Source of the DNA: Alopecurus myosuroides
Lineage: Eukaryota; Streptophyta; Magnoliopsida; Poales; Poaceae
Assembly (NCBI GenBank): GCA_028641055.1
Contig: CM054061.1
Location: 57,114,681-57,178,680, forward strand
Length of the DNA: 64,000 bases
Direction of reading: 5' to 3'
Shown: one piece after another, positions 8,342 through 44,901 of the stretch
Layout: the number at the start of each line of letters is the position of its first letter
Position numbering within the stretch: position 1 is the stretch's first letter
The notes under the pieces: generated by a model
The model's database searches: none
What the model was told of the DNA's origin: nothing
What the model saw: only the letters and a program-made list of their open reading frames with translations
Position numbers and translations under genes: made by a program

Positions 8342-8457
8342 TACAGTAGGTTCGAAGCAAAAGGCGCCGCGCGTGTGGATTGAAGCTTAAGACACCTCCG
8401 TTCTGTGGCACGCGGCGGGATAAAATAGTCTCCTCCCCAAGGAGAAAAAAACTCTAA

Positions 8458-19084: not shown

Positions 19085-21624
19085 CTCACTTTGTTCCAAA
19101 TGTAAGATGTTTTAACTCTTTTTCACATTCACACATTTTTACATGTATCTAGACAACTTTTAGTGCATATGTTCACTCATATTAGTTTGTATCTAAACAC
19201 CATGAGAAATAGCTAGAACATCTTATATCATGCCCGGGCCAGCTGTTCTGCAGAATGTGCCAGCCGCACAGGGCCCAAAATTTATGGGGGGCCAGAATTT
19301 TTATACAGGCCTATCAAGTATAGTAATCTGTGAGAACTAGACCGCTCAGGCGATGAGCGACTCTGAGGGCGGCTCCGTGGGCGACCCCGCAGGCGTCCCG
19401 GAGCGGGGATTGGCGAGTGAGGATGCTGACGTCGTGGATGGCCATCCCATCTGCACGAAGTCTGGCAAGGCGCCCTGTTCCAATCCCATCGCGGAAGGGC
19501 TCGGGGGTACGCCGCAGTTCAGTGGGGGACGATTTTGGGCGCTGGCGTTTAGCGATGAGGAGGAAGATATGATGCCGGTCGCCTCGTCGGAGCGAGCCAA
19601 CTACTTCGAGGCCTGCCGGACTCCGGTGTCTGAGGAAGCCAGGGCGATCCGATCACACTCGTCTAGATTCGAGAAACGACATCGAAAGCGGATCGAGCAA
19701 AGGTACGCTGCCATTTCTTTGTTCAAGGATTCGTCGATCTCTGGGTTCACTCCTAGATCAACCTTATCGGAGGGATCTGATCGGAGGCGTGCATTGAAGC
19801 TTCCGGTGATGGAACCTTCTGTTTTTACAAAGGTGGACGATGGTTGACAAACTTGGAGGATTGTCTCGCGCCGGCGACGATCGCCGTTGGGCCGCATGGT
19901 TGCGGGCGCAAAATACGGATCCGAGAGGGGATTTTTTTATTTGCGTAATTCACGTGAGGTGGACCCAATAAATGTTCTCAGGGGCTCGGGCCCGTTGGCA
20001 GAAAAAAGCGATCGCAATCCTTCGGATACTAGTGCGTATCAGATCTGTTCTGAGCGTACGAGGATTCCACTTGGTTTCGGTCCACGTAAATTGCTAGGGT
20101 TTATCTGGAAGACCTCCTCGGGGCGATCGACGAGATCTCCAGACAAGCCCGCCGCCATGGCTAAACGAGGAGGTGGCCAAGGCTCGGATCAGCAGGGAAA
20201 CGCCCATGGACTAGGCCATGGTCACTTTGGCCAGAACTTCGTCCGGGGGGACCGAGCGGGACGGCTGGTTTGGTGGATGGGGTTGAGGCGCTCGGCGGCA
20301 GGAACACGACCATGGAGTTCCATGCGGGTGCTGGATTTGATCATCAGATGGGGAATCGTAATCAGTATTACCGTGGCCGACAGCGCTACGATCACGCCCG
20401 TGGTAACAATGGCAGAGGACGAGGAGGTTATGGACATCAAGGATATGGACCTTATGGGTATCGGCAAGGAGTGGGTCGTGCTAGGATCCCTCCGGTGGCA
20501 CAGGCTACAAGCAATGTGCAGGCTCATGTCGCACCATTGGCGCCTCAGATTGTTCCTGCGGCTGTTCCTACGGCTGTTCCTATGCAGGTTGGTCCTGTGA
20601 ATGGGACGGTGGCGCCTGCTCCGCAACAACGGCACACGGTGATATCGCAAGCTGTGAATAATGTGTCCACTAGTCATGGTGTTGCTACCGGTCAAGGAGG
20701 AAAACGTGTCTCAGCGGATCAATTGGCTGCGGTAGTGGCTGGGGTGGTTTAGAAAAAGGGAAAGAAGACCGAGAAAAACAAGTGCTTTCCGTGTGGTGAC
20801 GCCAATCACTTTGTGGCAGATTGCCCGGCTCCATCTTGTTAGTTCTGTCAGGGTACAGTACACAAATCGGGGCCTTGTCCTCCGTTGTCCGCGCCAAAAC
20901 CCCACCCTGTTATGTACGGGTATGCTCACGATGAATTGATGATCTTTGGTATCCCTTTAACGGAGAGTTATCGTCCAATAGTTGTCAATGCTCGCTGAGC
21001 TTCCATAGTTGTTGCTAAGGGGAATATGTCTATCCCTCAAGTTATATCTCAGCTGCGGAGATTAGTGCCTACTGATTGATATGTGTGGGATGTTAGCCAG
21101 GTGGGCCATAATGTATTCAAAACCCTCTTCGCATCTAAGCTAGAGCTTGACAGGCTGAAGATTTTTGGAACTTGTCGTGTTCCAAACAGTTCTTGTGAAC
21201 TGACAGTGGATTATTGGGGACAGAGAATTGAACGTCTCGATACTCTGCCGGATTTTTGGGCCCAGGTTTCTGGCATTCCCGAGGAACATATTGGGGATTT
21301 TCTCGCGATGTGGGCGGTAGGCTACATGATTGGTGTAACGAGGAAAATTGATATGGTTTATACTTGTTAGAATGGGGTGTTAAGGATTTTAGTTGGATGC
21401 CTCAACTATACAAAAATCCCTAAAACTATTCCAATGCTCATAAAAGAGGAGATCTATGAGCTTTCTTTCTGTGGAGGGAGAGGAGAGGTATGATAACATT
21501 GATGACATGGCTGTGGACAATGACAAGGAGGATTATGACGATGATGATGATGATGATGATTTGGGGCCTGATTTTCGGGATGCTTTAGCAAAGACCTCTT
21601 TGGAGGATGTTCCAGCTAGAGGTG

Positions 21625-22102
21625 TGATGGAGGGATAATAATCCGGTAGGCCAACTCCAAGGTGTAACCCGGCCCAAAGGACGCTGCGCAGGATCCGGCT
21701 AAGGATAAAGAAACTTCTGGAAGGCCCAAGTTTGTAGGCCTAGTAACCCGGATTGTGGGTTACTTTAAAGGAAGGTTTGGGTTTGTATGCCGTGTCCGGG
21801 TAGGATCCAGGGTGCGCCTTGGAGAGTAAGCCATGGGGGGTACGGGTGCTTTATAAACCGACCCTCAGGTCTAGTCGAGGGAGATCTAAGAACCCTAGTA
21901 GTACCAGTTGATATCGAGCATCCAGTGTATACGAGAGATTGAGTTAATATATTGAGATTGGAGACTCGGCGACTTGATTGCCGGCTACCAGATCGAGTTC
22001 CATCATGTTTTCCTCTGAGCTAAACCCTCTCCCAAACGCCTGTGTCGTCTTGCCCCAATATCAGTTACCCCCGGTAACGTCTGCCGTGATAATCCCACGA
22101 CA
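21625..22102 (+). repeat. Gypsy 5' LTR (478 bp)
   Basis: Begins TGATGGAGGGATAATAATCC and ends CCCACGACA. A TATA box (TTTATAAAC, about 21850-21858) marks the U3/R promoter. An ATG at 22005 opens a frame that continues past the LTR end into the gag remnant. Confidence 0.92.
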
Positions 22103-22919
22103 GTTGGCGCCTACCGTGGGGCCTGCGTCCAAAGGTGTTTACATCACGGGAGAAGCTCGGAAGAACATGGAGAATCTTGTCATCGGCGAGATCTACATCA
22201 ACCACGAAGGGGAGAAGATGGTGGACGATTCCGGCTGGGAGCCAGAGTCGGATCACCTTGCATCCGGGTCCATTGTGACGATCGGCCAGATCAGCCTCTT
22301 CATCGGTATGGTACGTACGTCTGATTCAAAAGGACAATATCATGTGCATACTACAGGAACTTCTAGTAGGGACAAAAAGATACTCAAGCAAGCTGTGAAC
22401 TCGGTTTCCTCGGCTGTTTCGGGATACCTGAGATGGGCGGAACAAGAGATAACGTGGAGCAGAAGAGATCACCCGGAAAGGATAGAGCACCCAGGAGTCT
22501 TAGCATTGGTAGTCGCACCACATGTTAATGGATACGAGTTAAAAAGGGTCCTGATGGACGGTGGAAGTAGCATCAATATCTTGTACTGGGAAACTTCCTC
22601 ACGCATGGGTCTTAGAGAGTCCCAGCTACAGAAAAGCTCAACAGTTTTTCATGGAATAGTGCCGGGTCACTCGGCATGTCCTGAGGGGAAAATCGCATTG
22701 GAGGTGGCTTTCGGAGAATCAGCGGATAATTATCGAGTCGAGTGGCTCACGTTCGAGGTGGTCAAATTGCGCAGTCCTTATCACGCACTATTTGGAAGAC
22801 CGGCTTACGCCAAATTCATGGCCAGGCCGTGTTACGTGTATTTGCAGCTGAAGATTCCGGGTCCTAAGCGGACCATCACCATACATGGAAGCCGGGATAT
22901 AGCGGCCGAGTGTGACTAA
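22005..22919 (+). pseudogene. Gag remnant fused to aspartic protease
   Basis: From ATG 22005 inside the LTR the frame reads through the primer site (as LAPTVG) into the gag N terminus (KGVYITGEARK, VIGEIYI, DDSGW). Near 22320 similarity to the sister gag at 62949-64000 ends, and the frame continues into the pre-protease segment (ITWSRRDHPERIEHPG) and the protease active site MDGGSSINILY (about 22555). The bulk of gag, including capsid and any zinc knuckle, is missing. The frame ends at TAA 22917-22919, with a second in-frame TAA shortly after (before 22970), both upstream of RT. Retroviral-type protease normally cleaves the gag-pol polyprotein; here gag function is lost. Confidence 0.85.
22105..22122 (+). 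promoter_or_regulatory. Primer-binding site, tRNA-Lys type
   Basis: TGGCGCCTACCGTGGGGC, 2 bp after the LTR. It matches the 3' end of plant tRNA-Lys (CTT) except for one base (T for C at position 8); the sister copy at 62949 has the perfect match. Confidence 0.8.
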
Positions 22920-22970
22920 GGAGATTCGGTAATGGCCGAGCAAGCTTGCAGAAAATAAGAACTCAAGTAT

Positions 22971-25900
22971 TATCGGTCTCAAGTAGATCCAGATGATGGA
23001 ACCGCATTGAGAAGGCCGAATACTGAGGACGAAAGAGCAAAATTCAAGGCGGCACAGGACACCAAGATGGTGGATTTTGTCGAAGGTGATCCCACTAAGC
23101 AATTTACTATAGGGTCTAACTTGGACGGCGAGCAGGAGAAGGCACTTGTGGAGTTTATTCGCTCGAACGCGGACGTATTCGCCTGGACACCTAGCGACAT
23201 GCCGGGTATCCCTACAGAATTGGCAGAGCGCAGTTTGCATGTAGATCCCAAGTCCAGGCCTGTTAAGCAAGGCTTGAGGAAGATGAATGAGGAAAGAAGG
23301 AAAGCTATAGGTGAAGAAATTGCTCGACTATTAACAGCCGGCTTCATCATGGAAGTGTTTCACCCGGATTGGTTAGCAAATCCGGTGTTGGTGATGAAGA
23401 AGACCAATGAGTGGAGGATGTGCATTGATTTTACGAGTCTCAACAAGCATTGCCCAAAAGATCCGTTCGCATTGCCTAGGATAGATCAGATCATAGATGC
23501 AGTAGCTGGAAGCGACCTATTATGCTTTCTGGACGCTTATTCCGGATATCATCAGATTAAACTCAAGAGGGAGGATTGGGAGAAAACGTCGTTTATAACC
23601 CCCTTTGGCGCCTTTTGTTACAAAACCATGACATTTGGGTTGAAGAACGCTGGCGCAACTTATCAACGTTGTATTCAGAAGTGCTTCGAGGACCAAATTG
23701 GACGCAACGTCCATGCTTATGTGGATGATGTGGTTATCAAGACTAGGAAGGCGGAAACATTTATCGATGACTTGAGGGAAACATTCAAAAACTTAAGGAG
23801 GTATCAAATGAAGTTTAACCCGACAAAGTGCGTATTTGGAGTTCCAGCTGGGAAATTACTTGGCTTTATCGTTTCGGAGAGAGGAATTGAAGCAAACCCG
23901 GACAAAATTAAAGCTATTCAAAATCTGAAAAAGCTGGAAAATTTGAAGCATGTTCAGAAGCTCACGGGCTGCGTGGCGGCCTTGAGCCGATTTATATCAA
24001 GACTCGGAGAAAAGGCAATACCCTTGTACCGGCTCTTGCGGAAGTCCGACAAATTTGTATGGGATCAAGAGGCGGATGAGGCGTTCGAGGCACTAAAGAA
24101 GCAGTTATCTGAAGCACCAGTACTAGCGGCCCCGGGCCCCAAAGAGCCTATGTTGCTGTACGTAGCAGCTGGCCCCAGAGCCGTTAGTGCGGTGGTGGTT
24201 GTGGAGCGTAAAGAGGATGGAAAAGGTTATCCAGTCCAGAGGCCCGTTTATTATGTCAGTGAAGTATTATCAGAGGCAAAGCAGCGCTATCCGCATTGGC
24301 AAAAGCTGGTCTTCGGGGTCTTTATGGCCAGCCGGAAACTAAAGCCGTATTTCCAGGAACACCCCATAACAGTAGTTAGCTCAATACCAATGTCGGATAT
24401 CATCAGAAACTCGGATGCGACTGGAAGAATAGCCAAATGGGCAATAGAAATGGGGGATTATCACATCAGCTACGAGCCCAGGTCAGCAATCAAATCTCAG
24501 GCTTTGGTTGATTTCGTTAATGATTGGACACACACAGACATGACTACCGTGGTTCCAAGTTCCGAGTCATGGATCATGCACTTCGATGGATCAAAGCAGT
24601 ACGAGGGATCAGGAGCTGGGGTGGTGCTAACATCACCCAAAGGAGACAAATTGAGTTACGTACTACAAATTCACTTCGACTGTTCCAACAACGTGGCCGA
24701 GTATGAGGCCCTGTTGCATGGCTTAAAGGTAGCCAAGGAGATGAACATCAAGAGGATACGATGCTTTGGAGATTCGGACCTTGTGGTACAGCAGGTGTCA
24801 GGAACTTGGGATAGAAAGGACGCAACTATGGCAGCATACCGCAGGGAAGTTGATAGGGTTGCAGGATGTTTTTCCGGGTATGAGGTGGAGCATATAGACA
24901 GAAGAAAGAATGAGGCAGCCGACGCACTCGCCAGACTCGGCTCGCGCAGAGAGCCGGTTCCACCTAACGTTTTCCTGGACGAATTATGGCGACCATCAGT
25001 TAAAACCGAGTCAGAGGAGGAACTGGCAAATCAAGACCCGGATTCAGGACTTGTGGCCACTGTACGTACTATTCCCGAGTGGACAGAACCGTTTTTGACC
25101 TACCTTTCACGCGGCGAGTTACCACAGCAGGAGGTATTAGCAAGGCAAATTTTGAGGCGAGCAAAGGGATATTCTATCATCAATGGGGAATTATACAAGA
25201 GAAGCGCAGCAGGAGTCTTTCTGCGCTGCGTAGCGCCAGAAGAAGGCCGGCAGATTCTTAAGGATATCCATGAAGGCGACTGCGGACATCATGCATCCAC
25301 AAGATCTCTTGTGGCTAAAGCTTATCGACACGGATTTTTCTGGCTCACGGCTCTAGCAGATGCGGAACGATTGGTAGCAAGGTGTGACGGATGTCAACGG
25401 TACGCTCGCCAAACCCATGTGCCGGCTATGGAGTTACGGACCATCCCGTTAACTTGGCCGTTCGCTGTCTGGGGTATGGACATGGTTGGCCCCTTTCATA
25501 TGTCACCATGCAAGAAGACACATCTTTTGGTGGCTATTGATAAGTTTACCAAGTGGGTTGAGGTTATGCCAGTTACTAATTATGAAGCAGCTACAACAGT
25601 CAAGTTCTTAAAAAAGATTATCTACCGGTTCGGGTATCCCCACAGCATAATTACCGACAATGGAACCAACATGTCCCTTGGTGAGATGGAGAAGTTCTGT
25701 GGCAACAATGGAATCCGGCTTGATGTTGCATCAGTGGCTCATCCGCAGGCCAATGCACAAGTGGAGAGGGCAAACCAAGAATTGTTTCGCGGATTAAAAC
25801 CACGATTGCGAGTTCCCTGTATCAGGGCCGCTGGCGCATGGGTCGAAGAACTTCCTTCTGTGGTTTGGGGTATCAACACTACACCTAACAGGTCCACTCA

Positions 25901-26360
25901 AATGACACCCTTCTTCATGGTCTATGGCGCGGAGGCAGTGTTACCGAGTGACATTATTCACGATTCACCGCGAGTATTAGCTTACGTCGAAGTGGAGAAC
26001 GAAAAGACCCGGCAGGACGCCGTAGATATGTTAGAAGAGCAAAGAGAACAAGCCCTGGAAAGATCAGCCATATATCAGCAAGATCTACAGAGGTATCATA
26101 GCCGGCGCGTGAAAACCCGGGTGTTCCAGGAAGGAGATTTGGTTCTGCGCCGGGTACAGTCAAACGAAGGAAAACACAAATTATCACCACCATGGGAATG
26201 ACCATTTATCATAAGCCGGAATCTGCATAATGGATCATATTACTTGGTAGATGCAAGGGAAGAGTCGGCTACAATTAACGACACCGCACATACCACTTCA
26301 TCTATGCAAGAAAGAGACAGACCATGGAACGTGGCTCAGCTACGTCCGTATTATACTTAG
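22971..26360 (+). pseudogene. Gypsy pol: RT - RNase H (degenerate) - archaeal-type RNase H - integrase
   Basis: Same frame as the protease, open to TGA 26199-26201 and then to a natural-looking TAG at 26358-26360. RT: CIDFTSLNKHCPKDPF, DAYSGYHQI, YVDDVVI (23718-23729 for YVDD). A first RNase H region (LLYVAAGPRAVSAVVVVER) lacks the catalytic Asp of standard Gypsy RNase H. A second, complete one follows (MHFDGSKQYEGSGAG, NNVAEYEALLHGL, GDSDLVV, NEAADALARLG), the added archaeal-type domain of Tat elements. Integrase: HHAS...C.GCQ zinc finger, then D (WGMDMVGPF), D (ITDNGTNM) and E (AQVERANQE), all present. The stop at 26199 falls in the integrase C-terminal tail (PPWE then stop). With three nonsense codons in PR-IN, the polyprotein is not made. 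Confidence 0.92.
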
Positions 26361-27399
26361 TAAAGACCATATTGGCAAGTGGAATTGCACGATGTAACAG
26401 GCAGCAGGTTTTAGACGTACTCTTTTCCTATCCAGGGAACCCTTGGGGACTGGATGGGTTTTTAATGAGGCGGCTTGCTGACCCAATATTCTCATATCAA
26501 GAAAAGAAGTGGTTATTCTCATCTCAGTACGTTGCATATGTATAGGTCTTGGGGGCTGATTGCTTGAATAGCACAGTTACAAACTCAATGACCCGGCCTT
26601 GATGCCTATGAGTTATAAGGGCCGATTACTCGCAAACGAGTACGGCTGCAATCTTATAACCGGACAAAGGAGCCAAACTTTCTTGACTTTTCTTACTTAA
26701 GCTCGATGTGACTCGCAATAAAAGTGGCATGATTTGCTCGCTTACGATTACAATCAGCCATGAAGCCCAATGGGACTTGCCTGACCCTGTTTTCGTATAG
26801 ATGTAACAACATGATATCCACGCGAAAGCCGGCTTATAGTACAAGATTGTCAAAAGGGTCATCTAAACCACAAGTTATGCAGAGTATAAGGCTAAAGGCT
26901 GGAAACTCAATGTTTATCAAGCATAACTTCACTACCTAGGTGAAACGGCTCCGGGTTTGAGCTTAGCAAACAACAAAACTCGTTCTCTTCGAAAAGACCA
27001 CATATCCCAGACTCGGAAATTCGGGTCTTGGCGATTGGGGATTTTGGAAAGGAAAAAGTAGTTGCTAAGACTCAAAAACACCCAAACATCCGAGTCTTGG
27101 GGACTTGGGGGCTTAGAAGCAAGCCCGCTCGTCAAAACACCCATGAAACTTGGAAACCGAGTCTCACAATAGGAATCATAACGAAAGCCGGATATCAAGA
27201 ACAAGTTGACTCAAAAGTGGATAAATTTAAACGGACATAACAAGCACAAAGTGTATCAAGAACTTAGAGTGCATTACGAACTCCGGTAAATAGTATCAAA
27301 GGTGCACAGGCGCACCATCCAAAAATAAATTTTTTAAACGGCACATCGGCCGACTGACGCATGAGAAGTGGCATTAAGGAGCAGGTATCACTCGGCATT
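26361..27399. other. Gypsy region between pol and the antisense gene
   Basis: About 1 kb with no coding frame. A GGTCTTGGGGGCTGATTGC purine tract (26544-26562) resembles an internal polypurine tract. The 3' end of the antisense transcript should lie here. Confidence 0.5.
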
Positions 27400-30300
27400 C
27401 TAAGCCTCGGTGTCCATCTTCGCCTTACCCTTGCCATCGCTTGGGGTAGCAGCAGCACCCGGATCAGCAGCGCCGGCTCGCGCAGGAGGAGGAACGACTG
27501 GCGTGGAGGTAGCGGGTGCAGAATCGGCTTCAGCCTTCTTTTTGGAAGCCTCCTCCCTCAGCTTAGCAGCTTCCTCCTTCCATCGGGCAAGCATGTCATA
27601 CGGCTCGGGAAGATCCGATTTGACAACTTCACCAGCAGCGTCATACGCAGGAACAAGGGAATCCACATCTAAACCATCAGCAATCACGCTGGCCGGGTAA
27701 CGGACCTCTTTCTGGACGGCTTGGAAATCCTTCACGGAGAACTTGGACCCATCAAGCTTGAATTCCGGGAAACCGCCCATAAGCTTAGCCAGCTCGAGCT
27801 TAGGGAAATAAGCCTTGGCAAGTGCAAGCCCCCGGGTTACTCCCACCCGGCAGGACGAGCGTTTCCAGTGCCAAATCCATTCAGGGATAGTGGAGCAAGC
27901 GTCTAGCATTCTCTTCAGGTCGCCGTACCCTGTACCCGGCCACCGTATTTCTTGAAGGACCCATTTGGTTCGGGCGCATAGCTGCCGGATAACGCTCTTG
28001 ATAGCTTTCAGCCTGGCAATGTCACCCTCGTCTGGCATCACTTCATCCGGACCTGCAGAAATCGAAACATAAGTCAGGAAACTCCGGCTATTTATCAAAA
28101 GGGTAACCCGGATGAAGAAACATACCAAGCAAAGCACGATACGTGTCAGCGATTTGAACAGAAAGGCTCGTTAGATCATCTTCTGCTGTGTGAGCCCTCT
28201 TCCTATACTTCTTCATTATCATCCTGTTCCTCCTGGCCTCAGCCTCGGCCGCTTCACGCAGAGCCACCTCCTTTTCAATGAGCTTGGTGGCCTTTGCCAG
28301 TTTCTCCTCAGATTGAGTCACGAAGGACTGCATGGATGCAAGGAAGGATTAGCCGGGTAAGGGGGAAAGGTATCAGTCGTTTATATCGTAAAAGTTCCAA
28401 GCAAATTGTGAAATAATTCACTCGGAACTTGGGGACTGGATAAGGACACAAGCAATATTAGTCGGGTTTACCTCGTGTTTGGCTACTAAAGCATCCAAGA
28501 TATTTTCTTCATTAGCTCTCAAAGCGCGCAGGGTTTCGAGCATCTGGGCAAACGTCAGGTCCTCGGGTCGGACACCGGAAGAGCCGGCAGCCTGGTCGCC
28601 TGATGGGGGAGCTCTCCCCGCCCTTGGGGTCGAGACCCGGACAGTCTGAGTATCCGGGTTAGGAGAACCCATCCTCGTATCCGGAACCTCGATCTCCTCG
28701 TCTACTGGTTCGGATGAGGCAGGAGACTCGGCAGCTTGGTGAAGTGAGTCGCCCAAGGGGCCTTGTTTCTGGTCGTTCGCAGTATCACCGCCAGTCGCGG
28801 ATTCTATGTTCTCAGTCGGCTCCTCTGCCTGACGGTTGTCCGCCTCCCGGTTATCCATCTCCACATTCTCCGGGTCACTAACGGTGACTTGAGCGCTAAA
28901 AGAAAGATGAAAGAAGGCAGTTAGCAAGGGTGATTGAAAATTGTCAGGTATCAAAGGGTGTCATATAGCCAAAAACTTACCCGGTGTTTATGGCGTAATC
29001 CGGCGGGAGCTCGCCGCTGGAAGCAGACGAAGATGTCAAAGGGACCGACAGTGGAACCCGGAATTGTACGGCATGTGGATGGTTAGGAGAAGGGTGGCGC
29101 TGAGGAGAATTGGAAGGACGAGGCGAAGGAGCACTGGCACGGTGGACGGGGGAGGTAGAGATGCCCGGGTTAAGGGGATCCTCACCCGGGGAACTCCGAG
29201 TTACTCTGCGCTTGGCTGGAAGAGAGTCCTTCAAGTACGACGAGTTTGATAATTGATGGTTAAGTCGTCGCATGGCATCAAACGAGTAAGGTTCAGAGGA
29301 TATAGAAGAGAAAGGAACCTTGGACACTGCCCCTCTGGATTTCCTCTTGGCTCCGACTGTTACTTCCTGATCAGATTCGGTGGCCTCCGGGTCGTCCTCA
29401 TCCTTCTCTTCTTCGTCCTCCAGCCCTGCGAGCCGAGTATGTATTGATGGCAAAGGTTAAATGGGAGGAAAAGGATGTAAGTGAAGATAATACCAGATCC
29501 GGGCAAGTACCTTCACTATCATCGGCCGGCTCGTCCTCTTCTTCCGGGTCTCTGGAAGGAGGGGAGGGTTCAACTCTCCAGAAGGGATCATCAGCCTAAG
29601 ATAAAAGGATGAAATTAAGGGTTAGACGCTGTATCAAGTGAAAGTGTGGAAATAAGTTATGAATATCGGGTCTTACCGCTGGAGCCGGGTTTTCCCGAGT
29701 GAATGGGGGTAACCCGGCGATGTTCTTTATCACCTCTAGCTTCTCTGTCAAGAAGCCCTTGATGGTCTTGTTGGTATCGCCGGTCGCAAAGCTCTTGGTG
29801 GAGTATCGGAGTGCGTCCGTGGTGTGCCCCGAGTACTCGCACATTCATTTGGTGCGGATGGAGTTGGGTTGGATTCGAAAATCGACCCACGTTTTCACTA
29901 AATTGAGCCCAAGGAGGCCTTGGGCTGAGAGGATGGCTATTTTAGCTAACAAGGGAAGGATCGCCTCCCTGTCCGAGTCAGGGGCAAAAGCATTAAAAGA
30001 CTCGGAAGGCTCGAGGCGACTCTCCGAGTAACCCGGCAGTTTCTTCTCGCTGTCTGGGGAGGTATCATGGCAGTAAAAGAATGATAGCTGCCAGTGCTTG
30101 ACATGGGAGTTTAGATTGAGGGTTGGCATCGGTGAATTCTTGCGGCGTTGGATGGATACCCCGCCGCAGGTAAGAAGTGCTCCGTCACCGCTTTCGCGGC
30201 ACGGCTTACACTGGAATAGCTCGATGAAGAGAGTCAAACTTGGCGGTACGCATAAGTACGACTCAGATAGAACGATGAAGTGGGTAATGTTCAACATAGA

Positions 30301-30615
30301 GTTAGGCCCTATGTCGAATACCCGGAGGCCATAATGGTTTAGGACCTCCCTAAAGAAAGGGTGACCCGGGGGACGGAATCCTCGGGTCACGTGCTCTATG
30401 AAGCAGATTACCTCATTATCGGCGGGTGTGGGCCGGGTCTTGTCGCCCGGTGCTCTCCAGTGAATATCCTTCTGGGAAGGGAGAATTTCTAACTCGGCTA
30501 GCCCGTCCAGCTTGGCCTTTGTAACTGTGGAACGCCCCCAATTGGCGGATATGGTCTGGGTTGCCTTTGCCTGAGTCGGCTGTTTTCCTTGCCGTTTGGG
30601 AGCCATGGGATCAAC
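27400..30615 (-). pseudogene. Spliced antisense gene of the Tat-like Gypsy (Transposase_28-type, PF04195)
   Basis: Six coding exons on the minus strand: 30615-29677 (ATG 30606), 29595-29511, 29425-28981, 28895-28472, 28327-28126, 28052-27400. Every intron has GT...AG (donors GTAAGA, GTACTT, GTAAGT, GTAAAC, GTATGT) and all phases agree; coding length is 2,739 nt, 913 codons including the stop. The first exon has the 'putative gypsy-type transposon' block (ICFIEHVTRGFRPPGHPFF, HYGLRVFDIGPNSMLNI). Later exons are acidic and Ser/Pro-rich (LEDEEEKDEDDPEA), then a coiled coil (EEKLAKATKLIEKEVALREA), then a C-terminal domain ending in an Ala/Pro and Lys-rich tail. One in-frame TGA (29847-29845, codon 254) breaks it. 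Antisense extra ORFs are known in Tat-group elements; their role is unknown. Confidence 0.85.
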
Positions 30616-31365
30616 CTGCAAAACACAAGAAAAAGAGGTACAGGAAATAAGACTCGGAAGTATTGGATTATCCGAGTCTGGGATATCAAGAAAGTGTGAA
30701 AACTAAGAACTATCCGAGTATCACGCCATGAAGTGGAGATTGCAAGGTATCCGGGTATTAAGTATAACTATGGAGATTATTGGTCACTTACGTACGGAAA
30801 AGTGTTTGGGGAAGACGGATGGTTGCCCATGTATCTACTGCAAGCAAAATAGCCGGAAAAGGAGGATTTTCCGGGTGTCAATGTTATGTGCGGAAAATTG
30901 AGGTGAAATGGATCTAGAACGGAAAACTTGCAAACGATTCTACCAAGAGATTGGTGATTAATAATGATAGGAGGGTGGTGTGTGATCATCAAACAGGTTG
31001 TTGAAGAAGTTGGCAAGCATCTAAGCCGTCTAAATTTGGTGTGAAAAAAAAACGGCCCACAGGTTGACCTAGATCCAGTCTGGGGTGAATCGAAAAATTG
31101 CGAGGCTAAATTAAACAAGTACAAGGAACTTACTGGGAGATGTTGGAGTTTAGCGCGACGACGGTGGACGGCGTGGATCGAGTGCCCCTTTGCGATTCTT
31201 GGCGAGCGGGGTGAGCGCGCAGCGGTGAAGTTTGGCGGCGGCGCGGGATGGCTCGGAAGCGGACGCGGCCGGCGGTGGCTCTGCTCCGGCGGCGAGCACG
31301 AAATTCCTACGGTGGTGTTACGAGAGCGCAAGGAGTGAGGAAGGAAAGAAGAGGATGGAGTGAGC
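30616..31365 (-). other. Leader and 5'-UTR intron of the antisense gene
   Basis: An acceptor TTTTGCAG ends at 30616, 9 nt before the ATG. Strong donors CCAGTAAGT (intron start 31133) and TACGTAAGTG (about 30791) lie upstream. The stretch from about 31365 down to 31134 contains no ATG on the minus strand, as expected for a leader. The exact exon set (one or two UTR exons) cannot be settled by reading. Confidence 0.55.
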
Positions 31366-31394
31366 CGTTGGGTTCTAGGTCATCCTCTGAACAC

Positions 31395-31402
31395 TATTTA
31401 TA
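31395..31402 (-). promoter_or_regulatory. TATA box of the antisense gene
   Basis: A perfect TATAAATA on the minus strand, followed about 50-70 bp downstream by a pyrimidine-rich leader (CCATCCTCTTCTTTCC). It lies about 0.8 kb upstream of the ATG at 30606 and faces away from the 3' LTR. Confidence 0.65.
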
Positions 31403-31782
31403 AGGTGAGGGTGAACTTATCCCAACGGCCGGAAGCCGGAAATTAGGGGGGAATGGTTATCCACGCGGATCTTGCGAGATATGCTTCGAGTATTTGGCAA
31501 GGTACCTGGACAAAAAAGAGAAGGAGATCCACCCCGTGATATCAGGGTTGATTATCGAGTATAGAATCTTGACATTATTATCAGTATTCTTCAGACCTGG
31601 AAAGTTAAGCCAAGTACTTTGGGAAAAGCCGGGTTACTATATGGCCACCATGGAGTTAGGCCTAGCTGTCTATCGAAGCACCTTAACCCGGCCTCCATAC
31701 ACTTGTGTATTTGATATTTCTGCAGGGAATAACGAGCGCTTCAAGAAAGGATCCGTGAAGCCCAAGCTATTCTGGGGACTAC

Positions 31783-32259
31783 TGATGGAGGGATAATAAT
31801 CCGGTAGGCCAACTCCAAGGTGTAACCCGGCCCAAAGGACGCTGCGCAGGATCCGGCTAAGGATAAAGAAACTTCTGGAAGGCCCAAGTTTGTAGGCCTA
31901 GTAACCCGGATTGTGGGTTACTTTAAAGGAAGGTTTGGGTTTGTATGCCGTGTCCGGGTAGGATCCAGGGTGCGCCTTGGAGAGTAAGCCATGGGGGTAC
32001 GGGTGCTTTATAAACCGACCCCCAGGTCTAGTCGAGGGAGATCTAAGAACCCTAGTAGTACCAGTTGATATCGAGCATCCAGTGTATACGAGAGATTGAG
32101 TTAATATATTGAGATTGGAGACTCGGCGACTTGATTGCCGGCTACCAGATCGAGTTCCATCATGTTTTCCTCTGAGCTAAACCCTCTCCCAAACGCTTGT
32201 GTCGTCTTGCCCCAAGATCAGTTACCCCCGGTAACGTCTGCCGTGATAATCCCACGACA
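31783..32259 (+). repeat. Gypsy 3' LTR (477 bp)
   Basis: Same sequence as the 5' LTR with about three substitutions and one 1-bp deletion by eye. It keeps the TATA box (TTTATAAA, about 32007-32014). Its internal ATG frame continues without a stop across the junction into the LINE ORF1 remnant, to 32518. Confidence 0.92.
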
Positions 32260-33611
32260 AGGTGGTTCTGGGCAATCTGGGGAGAAGACTCCTACTAATG
32301 AGCAAGATAGGACTACTGCTAATGGTTCTTCTGATATGCAAATGAAGGCCACGGGTGTGGTATTTTCTCGGTCTCTAAGGAGGCAATTCAGCCTTGTTCA
32401 GCCGCTGGTTGGGGGTACATGTGCTGCCGGGCACAAAATCTCCTCTATTGTGCTGCCGGGCAGCAGTTCTGGGCACAAAACGGCTGTTTTTGCTGCCGTG
32501 GGTTGCGGTGCGGCATAGAATGGGGCTGCCGGGCACGAGAATCCTCCAATTGTGCTGTCGGGCAGCAGTTTTGGGCAGAAAAATGAGATTTGTGCTGCTG
32601 TGGGTTCTGCTGCTGTTTCAGTTTGTGCAGCAACTCTTTTGGCTCCAGCGGGTATTATCAAAGAGACAGATGGCTGTGTGGTTAAGCGGGTTGATGGTAC
32701 TCCCACTTTGTCTCCTTTTCGATGTTCACTTGGCCCGGTTTTTGATGTTGTGCAGTCAGTAGTCCAGAGGGACACACGGGTACAGGAGGTACCATTTGCT
32801 CCATCTGATGCAGTAACCATGGCGGTGAGACAAGCTACAGATGAGATGTGTCTGTCGCCAGTGTTACCCTCTGTTTGTTCGCTCGAGCATGATTATTCTC
32901 CATCTGCTGCTGCTCCTCGTGCTTCACCACATCCAACACCAGAGACTCCGAGAGGGAATGCTGGAGCGAGTGTGTTGGCTTCTCGGTTGGACGTTTCTTC
33001 TGCGAACCACACGGGGCTGGGACTGCCTACGCCAGCGACGGGAAGGATAGCGAGATGGCGCGCAGACGTGAGACCATCATTGCTTATGGTGGGATTTTGG
33101 AGCCCACTGCATCGGGGCGCCGTTCCAGTGCGCGTATTCGGGAGTCTCCGTCGGCGGATGTTCCTATCGTGGAGCGTGCGACTCTACGGGCTACACAGAA
33201 AGATGTGCAACTGGGAGGTATGTTTTCCGCTAAAGCACTGTCTTTTACTAGTTTTTCCAATGAAACTATTATTAGTAGAGCTTCTAGACTAGGTGTTTCT
33301 CTAGCTACATCTCCATCCGAAGTTGATAGAGCTGCAGTGATGTTGAAAGCTACTGAGCAATCACGCCATTTAGTTACTTTAACAAATAATTTGCATTCTT
33401 CTGGACATGATACTGATCTTTGTCCAGTAGTTCATAAGGTGTCATCTTTGTGTAACAATTTTGAGGATGATGTTGAGGGGGAGATTGATGATCAGCTGGA
33501 TCTCCTGTCACAGAGTGTCAAGGTGACACGTTCTTGTAAGAGAACCAAAGTGAGTGGGTTCTTCAAACCTAGGAGAAGTGCTAGAATTAAAACTTTGCAT
33601 TCTAAGTAGCC

Positions 33612-36600
33612 ATGAGAGGTTTATTCTGGAATAGCGATGGGTTTGGGGATACGGCTAAACACTGGACTGTTAGAGAAGCGTTATCTGAGCTTAAGTTAGA
33701 TTTTATAGCTATTAGCGAGACTGGTTGAGGGAGTTTTTCGGTTCCCTTTTTAAATCACCTTCCTGGCGGATTAGATTTCAGTTGGTATTGTCTACCACCT
33801 CATGGGAGGTCGGGAGGCATCTTGATTGGTTTTAACAATGTGACTATAGCAGTACAGTCTGTTATAGCCGGGGATTTTTCGGTTAAAACCCATGTTAGGC
33901 TAAAGGATGATGGATTCCTTTGGGCTTTGGTTGTTGTTTATGGGGCTGCCCAAAACAACAAAAAACCAGAATTTTTGTCTGAACTGTTCGTATTTGCGAT
34001 AGAGAAACACAACCCATATTGGTGGGTGGTGATTTTAATATTATTCGTCGCAAGGAAGACAATAATAATAATAATTTTAATCCGCGGTGGCCAGTTATTT
34101 TTAATGCTATTATTAAGAGTCTCGATCTTAAGGAACTTGACCTCTCCGGTAGACAATATACTTGGACAAGCAGGAGAGATACTCCAACTTTAGAAAAGTT
34201 GGATAGAGTGCTTGCTAGTATAGAGTGGGAGAAAAAATTCCCGTTGGTGACGGTTCAAGCATTAGCCAGAATGGGGTCTGATCATTGGTCATTGCTTGTG
34301 GACTCTGGTTCATCTGCTCATACTGGGAATAAATCGTTATTCTCTTTTGAGTTGTCTTGGTTGAGACAAGTGGCTTTTTTTTTAATTAGTCAAGGCGGAA
34401 TGTGACTCCATTTTGGCTGGTTCTACCCCGATTGAGCGATGGCAAAACAAGATCAGACATCTAAGGATTTTCTTAAGGGGCTGGGCTAGGAACCGAGCAG
34501 GTGAATACAAAATGTTAAGAGACAAACTGTTGTCTCTTATTAATGAGTTGGAGTTGAGAGCTGAAGTGGCTCCACTTTCAGACGTTGAACGTGACGCCAA
34601 AGCGGAGGCGGATGTATGTATTGCTAATATTCGACGCGAGGAAGAGTCTAAGTGGGCTCAGCGGGCGAAGGTTAGGCACATTCAAGAGGGGGGTGATAAC
34701 ACTAGGTATTTCTTGAGCAGGAAGCAAATCTTCCAGCTTGAGCAGGATGAGGGGACTATTATGGGACAAGAGAATTTAAAGGTTTTCATATCTGAGTATT
34801 ATAAAAAGTTGTTTGGGCCATCGATGCCATCTAGCTTCTCACTGGAGGAGTCTAGAATTGATGATATTACTCAGGTTTCTGAAGAGGAGAATCTTATTCT
34901 GACACAACCTTTTACGGAAAAGGAGGTGTGGGAGGCGATTTCTCAAATGGAACTCAATAAAGCCCCAGGTCCGGATGGTTTTCCTGCAGAGTTCTATAAG
35001 AAATTATGGGGGGTCATTAAAATAGATTTAATGGTCATGTTTAATCAGTTATATTCCGGTGATTTAGACTTGTTCAAGTTGAACTTTGGAGTGATCACCT
35101 TACTTACTAAGAAGGAAGATGCGAGTAGGATTGAACAGTTTAGACCTATTTGCCTCCTGAATGTGAGTTTCAAATTTTTTACGAAAGTTAGAACGAATAG
35201 GGTAACCTCGATTGCGAAGAGGGTTATCCGCCCCTCTCAGTCTGCGTTTCTCCCAGGGAGGAACATATTGGAAGGGGTTGTGGTTTTACATGAGACTATT
35301 CATGAGTTAAAACAAAAAAATTTGGATGGAGTCTTGCTCAAAATTGATTTTGAGAAAGCATATGATAATGTTAATTGGAAGTTTCTCCAGCAAACTCTAT
35401 GCATGAAAGGCTTCTCTCCACAATGGTGTGATTGGGTGGCTAGGTTTGTGCAAGGAGGAAGCGTGGGGATTAGGATCAATGATGATATTGGTCATTATTT
35501 CCAAACTCTAAAGGGGCTTAGAGATCTGTTATCACCTATTCTTTTTAACCTTGTTGTTGATATGCTGGCACTTCTAATCCAGAGAGCCAAAGAGGATGGC
35601 CAAATTGGAGGATTGATTCCACACCTTGTTGAGGGAGGGGTTTCTATTCTTCAATATGATGATGATACCATACTCTTTTTAGAACATGATGTAGAGAAAG
35701 CGGTTAATTTGAAGTTGATTCTGTCCATATTCGAGCAGTTATCTAGGCTGAAAATTAATTTCCATAAGAGTGAGGTTTTCTGCTTTGGCAAGGCAAACGA
35801 TTTTCAAAATGATTATAGGAAAATATTTGGATGTGAGCTTGGGGCTTTACCATTCAAATATTTGGGGATTCCTATTCACTATCGTAAACTTCTGAACAGA
35901 GAGTGGAAGCCGGTTGAGGACATGTTTGAGCAGAAGCTAAGTGGTTGGGTTGGAAAACTGCTCTTGTACGGTGACCGTTTTGTTCTCATTAACTCGGTTC
36001 TGTCAAGTTTACCTATGTTTCTTTGAAATACCCGCTGGGGTTAAAAAGAGACTAGACTTTTATCCATCCCGGTTCTTCTGGCAAGGTGATCAGAAAAAGA
36101 AGAAATACAGACTGACCAAGTGGAACATAGTTTGTCGACCTAAGGACCAGGGAGGTCCTGGGATTGAATGTCCTGATGTTAAGAACAAAATTTTGCTTAG
36201 CAAGTGGTTATTTAAATTACTCACTGAAGAAGGTATGTGGCATGAGTTGCTGCATAATAAGTATGTAAAAGGCAAACCGCTTGCACAGGTTGAAGCTAGG
36301 CCTACGGACTCCCCTTTTTGGAAGGGTATTATGGGGGTCAAACGGGATTTCTTCCAACACATTTCGGTTACACTTGGCAATGGGCAGAGTGTTAGGTTTT
36401 AGGAGGACCCGTGGTTGGATGGAGCATCTTTGGCAGATCAATATCCAATGTTGTTTAATATTGTTCGAAATAAAAATGTGTTAGTAGCAGATGTCCTTGG
36501 TCAAGACCAACTTAATATTCAATTTAGAAGATCGCTGTATGGTGATAAGTGGGTTGCCTGGCTCAATTTAGTGGATAGGTTGATAGCAATCTCTATTACG

Positions 36601-37242
36601 AATGAGCAATACTCTTTTAATTGGAAATTGACACGCTCAGGGATTTTGACAGTAAAATCTCTTTATGAGGAGCTTATGAATGGGGACACTGGGTTCCTAC
36701 ATAAGTATTTGTGGAAATTGAAGGCCCCTTTAAAGATCAAGATCTTTATGTGGTTCCTTTTCCGTAAGGAACTTCTTACCAAGGATAATCTCGCTAAAAG
36801 AAGATGGACAGGATGCAAACGTTGTGTGTTTTGTGATAATTTTGAGACAATTGATCACCTATTTGTTCATTGTGAGTTTACTAAGAAAATTTGGAGATTA
36901 GTTCACTTCACTTTTAGCATAACTCCACCCACTAGTGTTAATAACATGTTTGGTACATGGCTTAATGGTATAGATAAATCAACTAAAGCGAGTATACGCA
37001 TTGGTGTATGTGCTTTTCTTTGGGCAATTTGGAAATGCCGGAATGATGTAATATTTAACAATTTGGTGGCTGGACATTTTTTGCAGGTGGTTCATACGGC
37101 TGTGCATTGGATCCATATGTGGTCTTACCTGCTGCCCCAAGACCAGCGTGGACGTTTGGATGCCGGCTGCTCTCGGCTGATGACGGGCGTACGGGCTATA
37201 TTCAACATGGGTGGATGGCTGCACACTAGACGATTACAATGA
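33612..37242 (+). pseudogene. LINE ORF2: endonuclease - RT - zf-RVT, degenerate
   Basis: It starts at ATG 33612 (MRGLFWNSDG), 3 bp after the ORF1 stop. Endonuclease: IAISETG with a TGA after it near 33726, a frameshift near 34015, GGDFNIIRR, GSDHWSLL. RT: the frame 34413-36026 shows KAPGPDGFPAEFYK, RPICLLNVSFKF, SAFLPGRNI, KIDFEKAYDNVNW, then GLRDLLSPILFNL, where the usual GLRQGDPLSP has lost the QGDP core, and YDDDT where YADDT is expected. Frameshifts follow at about 36026 and 36400. The zf-RVT region is in 36415-37242 (WKLKAPLKIKIFMW ... CVFC ... HLFVHCEFTKKIW). No RNase H follows, unlike copies A and B, so this is a different L1 lineage. Several lesions rule out activity. Confidence 0.85.
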
Positions 37243-41841: not shown

Positions 41842-42363
41842 ACTTACATATGATTTGAGTGGCCATATGTAACATTTTGATCCTTTAAACTCTCACCCGG
41901 GGCAATGACGCAGGATCTATGCTCCTGTGGCCGCCATCTCATCCTCCGAAGGGTGACTTGAGGTAATAAGGTATTACCATTGCAAACTTCCTCCTCACTC
42001 TTCTCGCTGCAGTCTTTGTTGTTGTCCATCCTTATTGCGCCGCAGATCCATCCGGCCACCTCTTCCTCTACCCTAGCCCTACTCAAACCATATTCCTCCC
42101 ACTTATCACCATTTGCAGATGTGGTGGGTCCTATCCTCGACATATTTTGGATGCTTTCTTGGGATTTTAGGTATGCTCTAGGACAAAGTGGCGAGGCAGG
42201 ATGTGTGGACTTCATCGCATGCTCTAGTTGTCGGTATCTCGAGTAGCCGAGACCGGATCTGGCAGTGCTATTATCCAATAGGTTTTGCTCCGACAAGTGA
42301 ATTACATGCTCGACTACAATGGCTGGGGCTAGTCCCGTTTCATTCGGTGGAATTGTTAGCTAT
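41842..42363. other. Flank of the Copia insertion, no gene recognised
   Basis: A 150-codon minus frame (42296-41844) is open but shows no motif. The five bases before the Copia LTR are GCTAT; the matching copy would lie beyond the window. Confidence 0.4.
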
Positions 42364-43230
42364 TGAAAGTGCATTTCTTTTTTCCGGTGTTTTGTGTGTT
42401 AGTTAACAATACTAAGTACATTATTTATCGAGGTGTTAAGTGTGCAGGTGTTATCTTTAACATCGGCATCGATCACCAAAAAGATCGGTGAAGATTGGGC
42501 TAAGAGATTTGGGACAGTGAGGAGCCGTATTATTCTAACCGGATTATCCTGGGAAACCGGATATTCCGGTTAGGATGGTTTCTGTCCAGTTCGAGACAGA
42601 GAAGAGCCGGAATATTGGAACTAGATTATTCATGCCATACCGGATATTCCGGTTGAGGAAGTTTTGCTCAAAATCGACTAAGGACTGAAGCCTCAACTCA
42701 CAGTTTCCAACCGGATTATTTGAACCGGATTATTCCGTGCCAACCGAAATATCAGATTTAGGTGCCTGCACGGGACAAAAGCCAACCGGATTATTCAGCC
42801 CCAATCGGAATATCCGGTTGAAGTCAACGAGTTCGTTCAGATCTGGAAAAATATTCCCGACCGGATATTTTGGTCCAAACTTGCACCGGATATTCCGGTA
42901 CCACTTTTCCAGCTCAAACGGCTAGAATTGAGGAGGGGTATAAATACGCCTGCTCTTCCTCCTTGAGCTCTAGTTTGTCCATTAACATTCAATAGTATTT
43001 ATTGAGCTCACCAAATCTTCAATTACTCCCAATCCCTCCCACCAAACTTGTTGATCTTTGGATGATTCAAGGACAAGGCCCCGATCTACATCTTCACCGA
43101 GCCGTTCTTCATTTCCCCCTCATATTATTGAGGGTTTCAAGTCTACGGTTTCCATTTGTGGAGAACCTAGAGCTCTTGCTACTCTTGGTGATTCTTGGTG
43201 TTGGGAGCCCCCAATTTGGTTGTGGGTGTG
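42364..43230 (+). repeat. Copia 5' LTR, left part
   Basis: Starts TGAAAGTGCATTTC. From 42535 to 42905 it carries about a dozen variants of AACCGGATATTCCGGTT. The LTR is cut at GGGTGTG (43230) by a Gypsy element and resumes at 51759. Confidence 0.88.
42939..42946 (+). promoter_or_regulatory. Copia LTR TATA box
   Basis: TATAAATA directly downstream of the CCGGATATTCCGG array; the 3' LTR has the same box at 60756-60763. Confidence 0.75.
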
Positions 43231-44893
43231 TGATACGTCTCCAACGTATCTATAATTTCTGATGTTCCATGATGATATTATGCCAATTGCTACATGTTTT
43301 CTCCCTTCTTTATGTCATTTTTATCGATTTTCTGGACTAACCTATTGACAAGATGCCACAGAGCTAGTTCCCTGTTTTCTGCTGTTTTTAGTTTCAGAAA
43401 AGTTGTTCTGGAAATATTCTCGGAATTGGAAAATTCGAAGCCCGGAAGTCTTAGAATTTCCGAAGGTTCCACGGAGTCCCGAAGAGACCCGGAGGGGTGC
43501 CTCAGGGGGCCCCACACCATAGGGTGGCGCCCCCCCTTGGCCGCGCCGGCGGGTGCTGTGGGGCCCCTATGGCTCCACCGCGTTTGCCCTTTCGCCTATT
43601 AATTCCCCTCCGAAGGAAAACCCTAGGCACCTAATCAAAAATCCCTGAAAAGTTTCGCAGCCGTCGTCGTCAACCCTAGATTAGGGGGGTTATGAAGCTG
43701 TCTCCCGGCACCCTGCCAGAGAGGAGATCATCACCGGAGGCCTCTTCATCACCATGCCTGCCTCCGGAGTGATGTGTGGGTAGTTTATCCTTGGACTACG
43801 GGTCCATAGCAATAGCTATATGGTTGTCTTCTCCTCCTATGCCTCAATGTTTAGATCTCGTGAGCTGCCTAACATGATCGAGATTGTTCTTATGTAATCC
43901 TTTGTGATGTGTTTGCTGGAATCCGATGAATATTGAACTTATGCCAAGTTGATTATAGTCTTCATTGCATATGTTATTTGTGATCTTGCATGCTTTCCGT
44001 TGCTAGTGGTTGCTCTGGCCAAGTAGTTGCTAGTAACTCCAAGAGGGAGTATTTATGATCGATAGTTGGGTTCATGCCTCCTTTTCGCCTGTGCTCGAGT
44101 GACAGAAACGTGACGGTCGAGGATGTGTTGTTTCCACTAGGGAGAAAACAGCGGTGTCAGTGCCCGCGTGCACAATCATTGCTTACATTACACACATTTC
44201 TTAATGGGATTATCTGTTGCTTGCAACTTAATACCTAAGGGGGTTCGGATGATAACCTGAGGGTGAATTATTAGTCATAGATGCAGTTGGATTACGGTCT
44301 ATGTATATTGTTGTAATGCCCACACTAAATATCATAGTAGTCATCATGTCATGAATGTGCACTACGGTGCAACCTCTATTTGTCAATTGTCTGGCTGTAA
44401 TTTGTTCACCCAACATGCTATCTTTTATGGAGAGACACCACTAGTGAACCTATCAACCCTGGTCCATTTTCCTACACTGTTAAACAAACCACTACAATTT
44501 CCTGCTTTCTTTACTTACTGCAAGCATGCACTATTTTCCACACTATACGTCTAATCTTTGTTTTCAGCAAGACCGGTGAGATTGACAATCTCACTGTACC
44601 GTTGGACAATGTATTTTGGCTGTGTTGTGTGCAGGTTCCGCATTGTTGCTGACACCGGTGAGGCGCCATCACCACCGTCAGTGGCATCAACCTTCCGAAG
44701 ATCCTCTTTCTCCTACTAGATTGATAACCTTGGTTCTTAACTGAGGGAAATTCTTACCGCTGCACACATCACACCTTCGTCTTGGGGTTCCCAACGCACC
44801 ATCAACGTTTGCATCAAAGAATTTCTGGCATTGTTGCCGGGGATTCAAAGCCATCAAGAAGCAACCACTCCCTCATCAACTCTGCAAGCAACA
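43231..44893 (+). repeat. Athila-like Gypsy 5' LTR (1,663 bp)
   Basis: Contains a GGGGCCCACACC-type GC-rich block (43505-43570), TATTAATTCCCC core-promoter-like box, AAAACCCTAGG leader words and, near its 3' end, an extra primer-site-like sequence TGGCATTGTTGCCGGGGA (44826-44843). Confidence 0.85.
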
Positions 44894-44901
44894 AGAATTT
44901 A

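Follow-up and report, generated by a model that had tools for sequence, protein, structure and literature searches.

A Ty3/Gypsy LTR retrotransposon of Alopecurus myosuroides carries, on its minus strand, an antisense gene that is protein-coding and under purifying selection. We are nearly certain that it is a spliced, protein-coding gene of the element itself that is maintained by selection, and we consider the broader account, in which the antisense gene is taken together with introns that survive retrotransposition by virtue of their antisense orientation, to be likely. The strongest evidence for the gene is its conservation among copies. All coordinates refer to the window, which is the whole stretch of 64,000 nt that was analyzed.

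The host element (Tat/Retand-type) spans 21625-32259 on the plus strand and is delimited by its LTR pair and a target duplication of 5 bp, AGGTG, read in the flanks. Comparison of the LTR pair placed the 5' LTR at 21625-22102 and the 3' LTR at 31783-32259 (both plus strand; identity 99.16%). Next to the 5' LTR lies a TTGGCGCC.. stretch, a putative PBS. An ORF at 22103-22919 (plus strand) represents a protease-like part, in which DGGSSINILY is presumably the protease motif; no Pfam family, GAG included, was matched in this region before pol at E 0.01. POL follows at 23007-26201 (plus strand) and comprises reverse transcriptase, RNase H, and integrase, as seen from Pfam matches to RVT_1 (2.4e-25), RVT_3 (1.9e-20), and rve (2.4e-15). 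Neither a plus-strand ORF of at least 120 aa between pol and the 3' LTR nor a tandem-repeat array in 21600-32300 at score 40 was found.

The dimensions of the element agree with those given for Retand in the consulted parts of PMC11963269: the LTR of 478 bp, the internal region of 9,680 bp, and the POL-3'LTR region of 5,581 bp (26202-31782) lie inside the respective ranges of 315-1,194, 7,380-12,869, and 2,933-6,566 bp. A tandem-repeat array was reported there for about half of the Retand clusters and is thus an optional feature. Three rows of that work, Alopecurus myosuroides 7a-c, come close to the element described here (LTR 477-481, internal region 9,671-9,685) and likewise have neither GAG nor tandem arrays, whereas their pol-to-LTR length of 5,427-5,433 differs from the 5,581 found here, perhaps because the end of pol was set differently. 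The element probably belongs to the Retand lineage (Tat-like), an assignment set by element anatomy and PF04195.

The antisense gene extends over 4,003 nt on the minus strand, from a TATA box at 31402 to a TAG at 27400, and its rebuilt boundaries give six introns, one in the leader and five in the coding part. The TATA box, TATAAATA (31395-31402), is located about 380 bp from the 3' LTR boundary on the side of the internal region. It is followed by a pyrimidine-rich, non-coding leader exon (31134-31372), whose start is an estimate set about 30 nt downstream of the TATA box, and by a GT-AG leader intron of 518 nt (30616-31133; ends GTAAGT..GCAG), whose acceptor lies 9 nt upstream of the ATG at 30606, as the first-pass annotation had read it. 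Coding exon 1 (29677-30606, 310 codons) contains the PF04195/TRP28 domain at the start of the protein, which had also been recognized before and which Pfam matched with E 1.4e-21 and 76.9 bits against a cut-off of 26.2. The further coding exons are exon 2 (29511-29595, 85 nt), exon 3 (28981-29425, 445 nt, acidic and then of low complexity), exon 4 (28472-28895, 424 nt), exon 5 (28126-28327, 202 nt), and exon 6 (27400-28052, 653 nt), which encodes the conserved C-terminal part, ends in the TAG stop, and holds the tblastn matches of the related proteins P0001-P0003. They are separated by intron 1 (29596-29676, 81 nt, phase 0), intron 2 (29426-29510, 85 nt, phase 1), intron 3 (28896-28980, 85 nt, phase 2), intron 4 (28328-28471, 144 nt, phase 0), and intron 5 (28053-28125, 73 nt, phase 1), all with GT-AG ends as first proposed; the phases, given earlier as 0,1,0,0,1, had to be corrected to 0,1,2,0,1.

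The coding sequence amounts to 2,739 nt, or exactly the 913 codons that had been counted, TAG included. The one TGA noted in that frame, on the other hand, is a premature in-frame stop inside coding exon 1 (codon 254, 29845-29847), which leaves the gene of the window copy disrupted. Of 34 family copies, 0 have a stop at this position, which makes it private among the copies compared.

Single-copy splice models in transposons are often spurious, and together with the in-frame stop of the window copy this raises the question of whether the model is a product of chance or annotation. When the antisense strand was searched for spliced frames (at most five introns, each of 60-160 nt, one stop permitted), the best frame measured 2,799 nt, compared with a mean of 1,283, an SD of 165, and a maximum of 1,668 nt in 100 dinucleotide shuffles; the best frame of the opposite strand reached 1,575 nt. 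The view that random sequence would hardly hold such a model was therefore borne out, and a chance model was rejected on the shuffle test and the conservation among copies; with the splice sites, the TATA box, and the dN/dS values reported below, we regard an artefact as practically negligible. The leader does indeed contain no ATG, but the same is true of 317/500 shuffles and 19/24 sequences, and this property was dropped as evidence for a gene. Taken by itself, TATAAATA is likewise a weak sign, as shuffling the upstream stretch produced it in 9 of 500 cases.

Copies were searched in the same 3.57 Gb genome, and 28 were picked by hand from the 150 top-scoring of 57,073 candidate PF04195 places, a choice that biases the sample toward conserved copies. 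The 23 diverged copies offer 138 intron slots, six of which are absent because similarity ends there (introns 4-5 of L016 and introns 2-5 of L021). GT and AG stand at the aligned sites in 131 of the 132 introns present; for L018, L019, L020, L022, and L026, BLAST covers mainly exon 1, and the remaining introns were read from the MAFFT alignment. These splice sites are kept while the intron bodies fall to about 50% identity, and the leader intron shares 50-82% identity with the window in 13 copies. Even at the end of exon 1 in L010 and L012, which align up to that point with an identity of 31% and 29%, a GTAAGT donor is present, as it is in L013, a locus resembling these two. The octamer TATAAATA recurs in 22 of the 23 diverged copies, which supports the earlier suggestion that the gene has its own, predicted promoter.

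Another 34 places with 94-99% identity cover the whole 4,003-nt gene (lengths 3,936-4,013 nt), and any deficit is smaller than the length of the shortest intron. A structure private to the window copy is ruled out by this family and by the conserved diverged copies. The predicted spliced antisense gene of the first-pass annotation is supported, and its exon junctions, whose lack of conservation had been named there as a sign against the gene, are shared among family members. The picture is less uniform for the reading frame: when the frame of the window copy was projected onto 15 others, 13 contained one or more stops and two were open throughout, and the projected length was not a multiple of three in 11. 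Frequent frame breaks had been named as a sign against the gene; they are as expected from decaying copies and a crude projection, and the low dN/dS speaks for the frame.

In the proposed frame, the exons gave dN/dS values of 0.13-0.22 in 21 of the 23 copies, far below 1, with outliers of 0.35 in L016 and 0.45 in L021; the ratios are rough in 11 of the 21 comparisons because dS exceeds 1. In the same 21 copies, the other two frames of the antisense strand yielded 1.00-1.89, and one frame of the opposite strand yielded 0.17-0.38 and was always higher than the antisense frame. The constraint is weaker than that on pol (0.03-0.05). These values bear on the idea that the antisense RNA itself is functional, with an incidental frame, by pairing with the genomic RNA and thereby triggering or blunting silencing. 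The convergent layout does permit dsRNA, an option that is discussed in the consulted parts of PMC7264820. However, an RNA-only function leaves unexplained both the selection on the protein, with at least 1.00 in the two other antisense frames, and the splice sites conserved across diverged copies, as well as the resemblance of the protein to models from wheat and Aegilops. Antisense RNA as the sole function was rejected on the frame-specific dN/dS and is, in our judgement, highly improbable, whereas a dsRNA role alongside the protein is possible.

Relatives of the protein were found in other grasses, as had been proposed for examination, mostly among wheat and Aegilops proteins, in which junctions 1, 4, and 5 are visible and intron 1 has the same position. 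By pattern, 51 of 68 related proteins cross junction 1 without interruption, while three of the 68, all from short contigs, contain 26 extra residues there that begin with V-S and end with Q, the pattern expected of an unspliced GT..CAG intron. Donor read-through was also seen at intron 5. One relative, P0048 (845 residues, from a contig of 4,258 bases), remains open over the junctions, as expected of a spliced cDNA. A search with residues 60-330 only returned no relatives, although the full-length query did, and a scan of IMG/VR found no relative.

Structure predictions were less informative. The TRP28 model (mean pLDDT 59) had no PDB or viral match of note, the C-terminal model reached a pTM of 0.23, and searching solved structures with a profile yielded 14 weak matches (best E 0.0028), of which 12 fell in the coiled-coil part. 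In the model of P0053 (Aegilops), the region corresponding to coding exon 5 is a predicted long helix (123-245). None of the predicted folds points to a mechanism.

Among the three functions first considered, a trans-acting protein fits best. We propose that the stretch between pol and the 3' LTR of the element holds a complete Pol II gene that is convergent with gag-pol, with a TATA promoter of its own inside the internal region and with six introns, one in the 5' UTR and five in the coding part. Its mRNA would be transcribed and spliced without the LTR promoter, and its product would be an accessory element protein of about 900 residues with an N-terminal TRP28 (PF04195) domain, an acidic and probably disordered middle, a coiled coil, and a conserved C-terminal part. 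This protein may enter the nucleus, dimerize via its coiled coil, and regulate the element or its chromatin, in a position comparable to that of retroviral antisense proteins such as HBZ. That the product is a nuclear regulator is a tentative proposal, which we rate slightly below even chances. In maize Grande, the antisense gene (gene23) has its own upstream promoter and encodes a nuclear protein according to Gomez-Orte 2013 as relayed in PMC7264820. HTLV HBZ/APH-2, which is named in PMC11963269, is an analogous retroelement antisense gene with a separate promoter and a nuclear protein, for which no homology is claimed; the HTLV antisense promoter lies within the 3' LTR (PMC7264820), whereas the TATA box here lies in the internal region.

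Alternatively, the product might be a structural or packaging factor that replaces or aids the missing GAG. The element has no GAG family match before pol, and in the consulted Table 1 of PMC11963269, all eight rows marked GAG NO are TRP28 YES. TRP28 is, however, also present in most of the GAG-bearing rows, and the Grande protein was reported to be nuclear. Because the models are weak, structure searches are uninformative on this point either way, and we consider such a role improbable.

Antisense ORFs in this position are not new in themselves. Antisense TRP28 (PF04195) ORFs were reported in 61 of 63 Retand clusters (Vicient 2025, PMC11963269), with the same location from pol to the 3' LTR, strand, and domain as here. 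Grande gene23 is likewise antisense between pol and the 3' LTR, and rice RIRE2 and Silene Retand have antisense ORFs that, as described in PMC7264820, agree in position and orientation; ORF4 of Silene Retand shares the Pfam domain of the gene described here. Where PMC11963269 delineated ORFs by ORF Finder, we find that the ORFs belong, as exons, to a single spliced gene whose TATA box is conserved. In that paper, "intron", "exon", and "splic" are confined to the reference list, and the word "intron" is absent from the review PMC7264820. Introns in the antisense gene were not described in the consulted parts of these two works or in passages of PMC12786077, PMC3091746, and PMC10606437. One spliced gene built from such ORFs was not found in the literature searched and has apparently escaped notice.

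What the antisense ORFs of plant LTR retrotransposons do and where they come from are questions described as open in the consulted parts of PMC7264820 and PMC11963269. With one intron in the 5' UTR and five in the coding part that cover all three phases, the gene has the look of an ordinary plant gene, and it might have been captured long ago from genomic DNA of the host, introns included, and still do a host-like job. This concerns its origin and is compatible with a spliced element gene under selection. Capture through spliced mRNA is disfavored by the intron-bearing structure, as it would presumably have left a gene without introns. Against capture stands the statement in PMC11963269 that no TRP28 similarity was found outside transposons. 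Since copies with saturated dS have the same introns, the captured gene suggested at first is conceivable only as an old event and not as a recent one, and we consider it rather unlikely overall.

Returning to the spliced element gene, the persistence of its introns may be explained by orientation: in the sense genomic RNA, they would read CT..AC, be invisible to the spliceosome, and be copied intact by retrotransposition, whereas a sense gene would lose them. We further lean, by a modest degree, toward the view that a single split gene of ancient origin unites, as its exons, several antisense ORFs that were reported one by one in Retand (TRP28, Smc-like, and other coiled-coil ORFs). In this view, its promoter and intron positions are fixed and have been retained across grass Retand and probably beyond, and it entered as an intron-bearing genomic gene whose introns survived as antisense.

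The gene model predicts the form that spliced antisense reads should take, and the spliced protein and predicted promoter provide the correct construct for localization, DNA-binding, and expression tests. If this view is true, a genuine regulatory gene with introns resides in one of the major lineages of plant retrotransposons, which would be an example of how a retroelement may retain an intron-rich gene through its RNA stage.

The minus-strand gene at 27400..31402, between pol and the 3′ LTR of a Tat/Retand-type Ty3/Gypsy element, was rebuilt from the sequence with a TATA box (TATAAATA, 31402-31395), a leader intron, and six coding exons, and all boundaries fit as proposed by the first-pass annotation. 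The leader intron is 518 nt long and ends 9 nt before the ATG; the five coding introns (81, 85, 85, 144, and 73 nt) are all GT-AG. The annotated frame of 913 codons (2,739 nt including the stop) stands, with codon 254 being TGA, but the intron phases are 0,1,2,0,1 instead of 0,1,0,0,1. A Transposase_28-type start had also been claimed, and a Pfam search indeed found this domain (PF04195, TRP28) in exon 1 (E 1.4e-21). The frame is likewise beyond chance: in a dynamic-programming test allowing up to five introns of 60-160 nt and one stop, the best spliced frame on the real strand was 2,799 nt versus a mean of 1,283 nt (SD 165, maximum 1,668) in 100 shuffles. The opposite strand reached 1,575 nt in the same test.

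Diverged copies were collected from the genome (3,566,735,433 bases in 3,227 contigs, with the window placed at C5:57114681-57178680). A scan for PF04195 gave 57,073 first-look candidates, of which 150 were scored, all above the cut-off; 28 of these, hand-picked and spread over the list, were taken as gene-sized stretches (20 + 8). By BLAST, 23 of the 28 align to the window gene, with 69-80% identity in the main piece; in L018, L019, L020, L022, and L026 this piece extends little beyond exon 1, and the other introns rest on MAFFT alignments. Reading six introns in each of the 23 copies (15 + 8, the window copy being left out of splice-site and TATA counts) gives 138 slots, six of which are missing where similarity ends first (introns 4-5 of L016, introns 2-5 of L021). 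The exon junctions are kept between family members, as GT and AG lie at aligned places in 131 of the 132 introns present; the sole exception is the leader acceptor of L048, which is aligned in a gap. Intron lengths vary across copies, from 375 to 542 nt for the leader intron and from 73 to 102 nt for intron 5, and the leader intron is 50-82% identical to that of the window (13 copies). The octamer TATAAATA is present in 15/15 copies of the first set and 7/8 of the second, L047 carrying TATATATA instead.

The remaining five stretches (L009-L013) gave no BLAST alignment to the window gene, and their first 1,000 nt contain no octamer resembling TATAAATA. In L010 and L012, which align as far as residue 310 at 31% and 29% identity, GTAAGT marks the end of exon 1 one codon later, with the phase unchanged; L013 (aligned to residue 300) also has GTAAGT there. 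Beyond this genome, 68 related proteins were found: 62 named wheat, emmer, or Aegilops models, one Festuca, one jgi, two lgn, and two ena entries. The junction 1 pattern matched in 54, of which 51 read straight through (as NPAPA followed directly by ADDxFW); the other three (P0054, P0055, and P0057), all on short contigs of lgn or ena origin, carry 26 additional residues that start with V-S and end with Q and read as an unspliced intron would. Among the 14 proteins outside the pattern, five run straight through with one changed residue, P0052 does so by eye, two have a different upstream part joined to the identical start of exon 2, and six do not cover the junction or are not alignable. At junction 5, FG plus exon 6 occurs in 24 of the 68, and seven proteins (P0008, P0022, P0046, P0062, P0064-P0066) have FGK, as a GGTAAR donor would read. 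At junction 4, P0001, P0017, P0020, P0021, and P0023 use different donors and share the residue at which exon 5 is entered. Near junction 2, P0062, P0063, and P0065 carry an insert of 20 residues that P0064 and P0066 lack, several of these proteins being named as isoforms; around junction 3, divergence is too high to judge. P0048, open over 845 residues on a contig of 4,258 bases, was taken for a putative cDNA.

Selection was estimated by comparing the window with each of the 23 copies (Nei-Gojobori dN/dS). Over the exons, dN/dS is far below 1, at 0.13-0.22 in 21 copies, values that are rough because dS exceeds 1 in 11 of these 21 comparisons; L016 (0.35) and L021 (0.45) have downstream parts without alignment. 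In the same 21 copies, the other two antisense-strand frames give 1.00-1.89. One opposite-strand frame gives 0.17-0.38 in the 21 and lies above the antisense frame in 23/23; no plus-strand ORF of at least 120 aa was found between pol and the 3′ LTR of the window element. Young pairs are mixed (L014-L024 0.50, L022-L026 0.18). Regarding frame breaks, a crude projection from the window, blind to indels and shifted splice sites, placed stops in 13 of 15 copies and gave a length not divisible by three in 11; two of the 15 are open throughout. For pol, 12 stretches were fetched, six of which were usable (five whole, one two thirds), two giving short matches and four none. Pol dN/dS in the six elements is 0.03-0.05 with 85-92% DNA identity, as against 69-80% for their antisense gene; the antisense gene evolves faster than pol, yet is clearly constrained. 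Pol dS is below that of the antisense gene in all six (L029, L030, L032, L033, L035, L040), and pol identity in L033 rises to ~95% in its last third. The contrast in identity may reflect either mosaic elements or uneven constraint.

To cover the window's own family, its 4,003-nt gene was searched at the DNA level, which gave at least 38 matches: the window, 34 other full places, and three partial ones. The 34 (like the other counts, a lower bound) cover the gene from base 1-3 to 4003 at 94-99% identity and measure 3,936-4,013 nt, none being shorter by the length of the smallest intron. None has a stop at codon 254, and five have another stop inside the ~200 nt read around it.

The whole element (21625-32259, +) is delimited by an LTR pair and a 5-bp target duplication (AGGTG). 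Its LTRs (478 and 477 bp) are 99.16% identical, with four differing columns among the 478 aligned, which, at a substitution rate of 1.3e-8 per site per year, suggests insertion ~0.25-0.32 million years ago. POL (reverse transcriptase, RNase H, integrase) matches Pfam at 23007-26201 (+), and a protease-like part precedes it at 22103-23006 (+). No GAG family was matched in the element by the Pfam search, and judging from this sequence the element is probably non-autonomous; its antisense gene nonetheless stands at 34 further full-length places. The element agrees with the Alopecurus myosuroides 7a-c rows in Table 1 of PMC11963269 (LTR 478, internal 9,680, no GAG, no tandem array, TRP28 present). 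In the tables of PMC10606437, PF04195 tops the Pfam domains of blackgrass extrachromosomal circular DNA (416 and 361), which fits recent activity of such elements.

Around the element, LINE-type ORFs that match reverse transcriptase and zf-RVT lie at 10053-13490 (-) and 34413-37242 (+), the latter ~2 kb beyond the 3′ LTR. A Copia-type fragment (54771-55469, +; gag_pre-integrs and a partial integrase match) sits among more broken ORFs (52226-58563), and a related second element starts near the right edge (62467-63171, +), its LTR and adjoining sequence being 81-83% identical to the first. Long direct repeats common to 42362-44894, 48523-51986, and 60198-62540, mostly 76-95% identical, are probably parts of further nested elements. 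Two identical 200-bp copies (730-929 and 1004-1203) are separated by 274 bp.

Antisense TRP28 ORFs have been reported in 61 of 63 clusters, along with further antisense ORFs with Smc-like domains, in PMC11963269, and the terms intron, exon, and splic are absent from that text outside its reference list. PMC7264820 calls for antisense and spliced transcripts to be looked for. An ORF threshold of 600 nt applied to the window yields two distinct antisense ORFs in the pol-to-3′ LTR region (29845-30621 and 27400-28137), corresponding mainly to exons 1 and 6 of a single gene. By analogy, multiple antisense ORFs in published elements may often be exons of one gene as well, a statement not found in the open-access literature searched, mostly through listings.

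Taken together, the copies show a split gene whose promoter element is fixed and which is kept by protein-level selection. Its introns probably survive retrotransposition because the gene is antisense, so that the genomic RNA has them as CT..AC, which implies that the antisense mRNA was never a template in the lineage of copies examined. This mRNA would be transcribed from the TATA promoter and spliced, and its protein would act in the nucleus. A structure model of TRP28 (mean pLDDT 59) gave no structural match, and the coiled-coil part was modeled confidently only as a long helix. The antisense protein of the maize element Grande is described as nuclear in PMC7264820, and DNA binding is predicted for TRP28 in PMC11963269. 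On these parallels, a nuclear regulator is the favored product of the antisense gene, a role that we hold tentatively, at slightly below an even chance.
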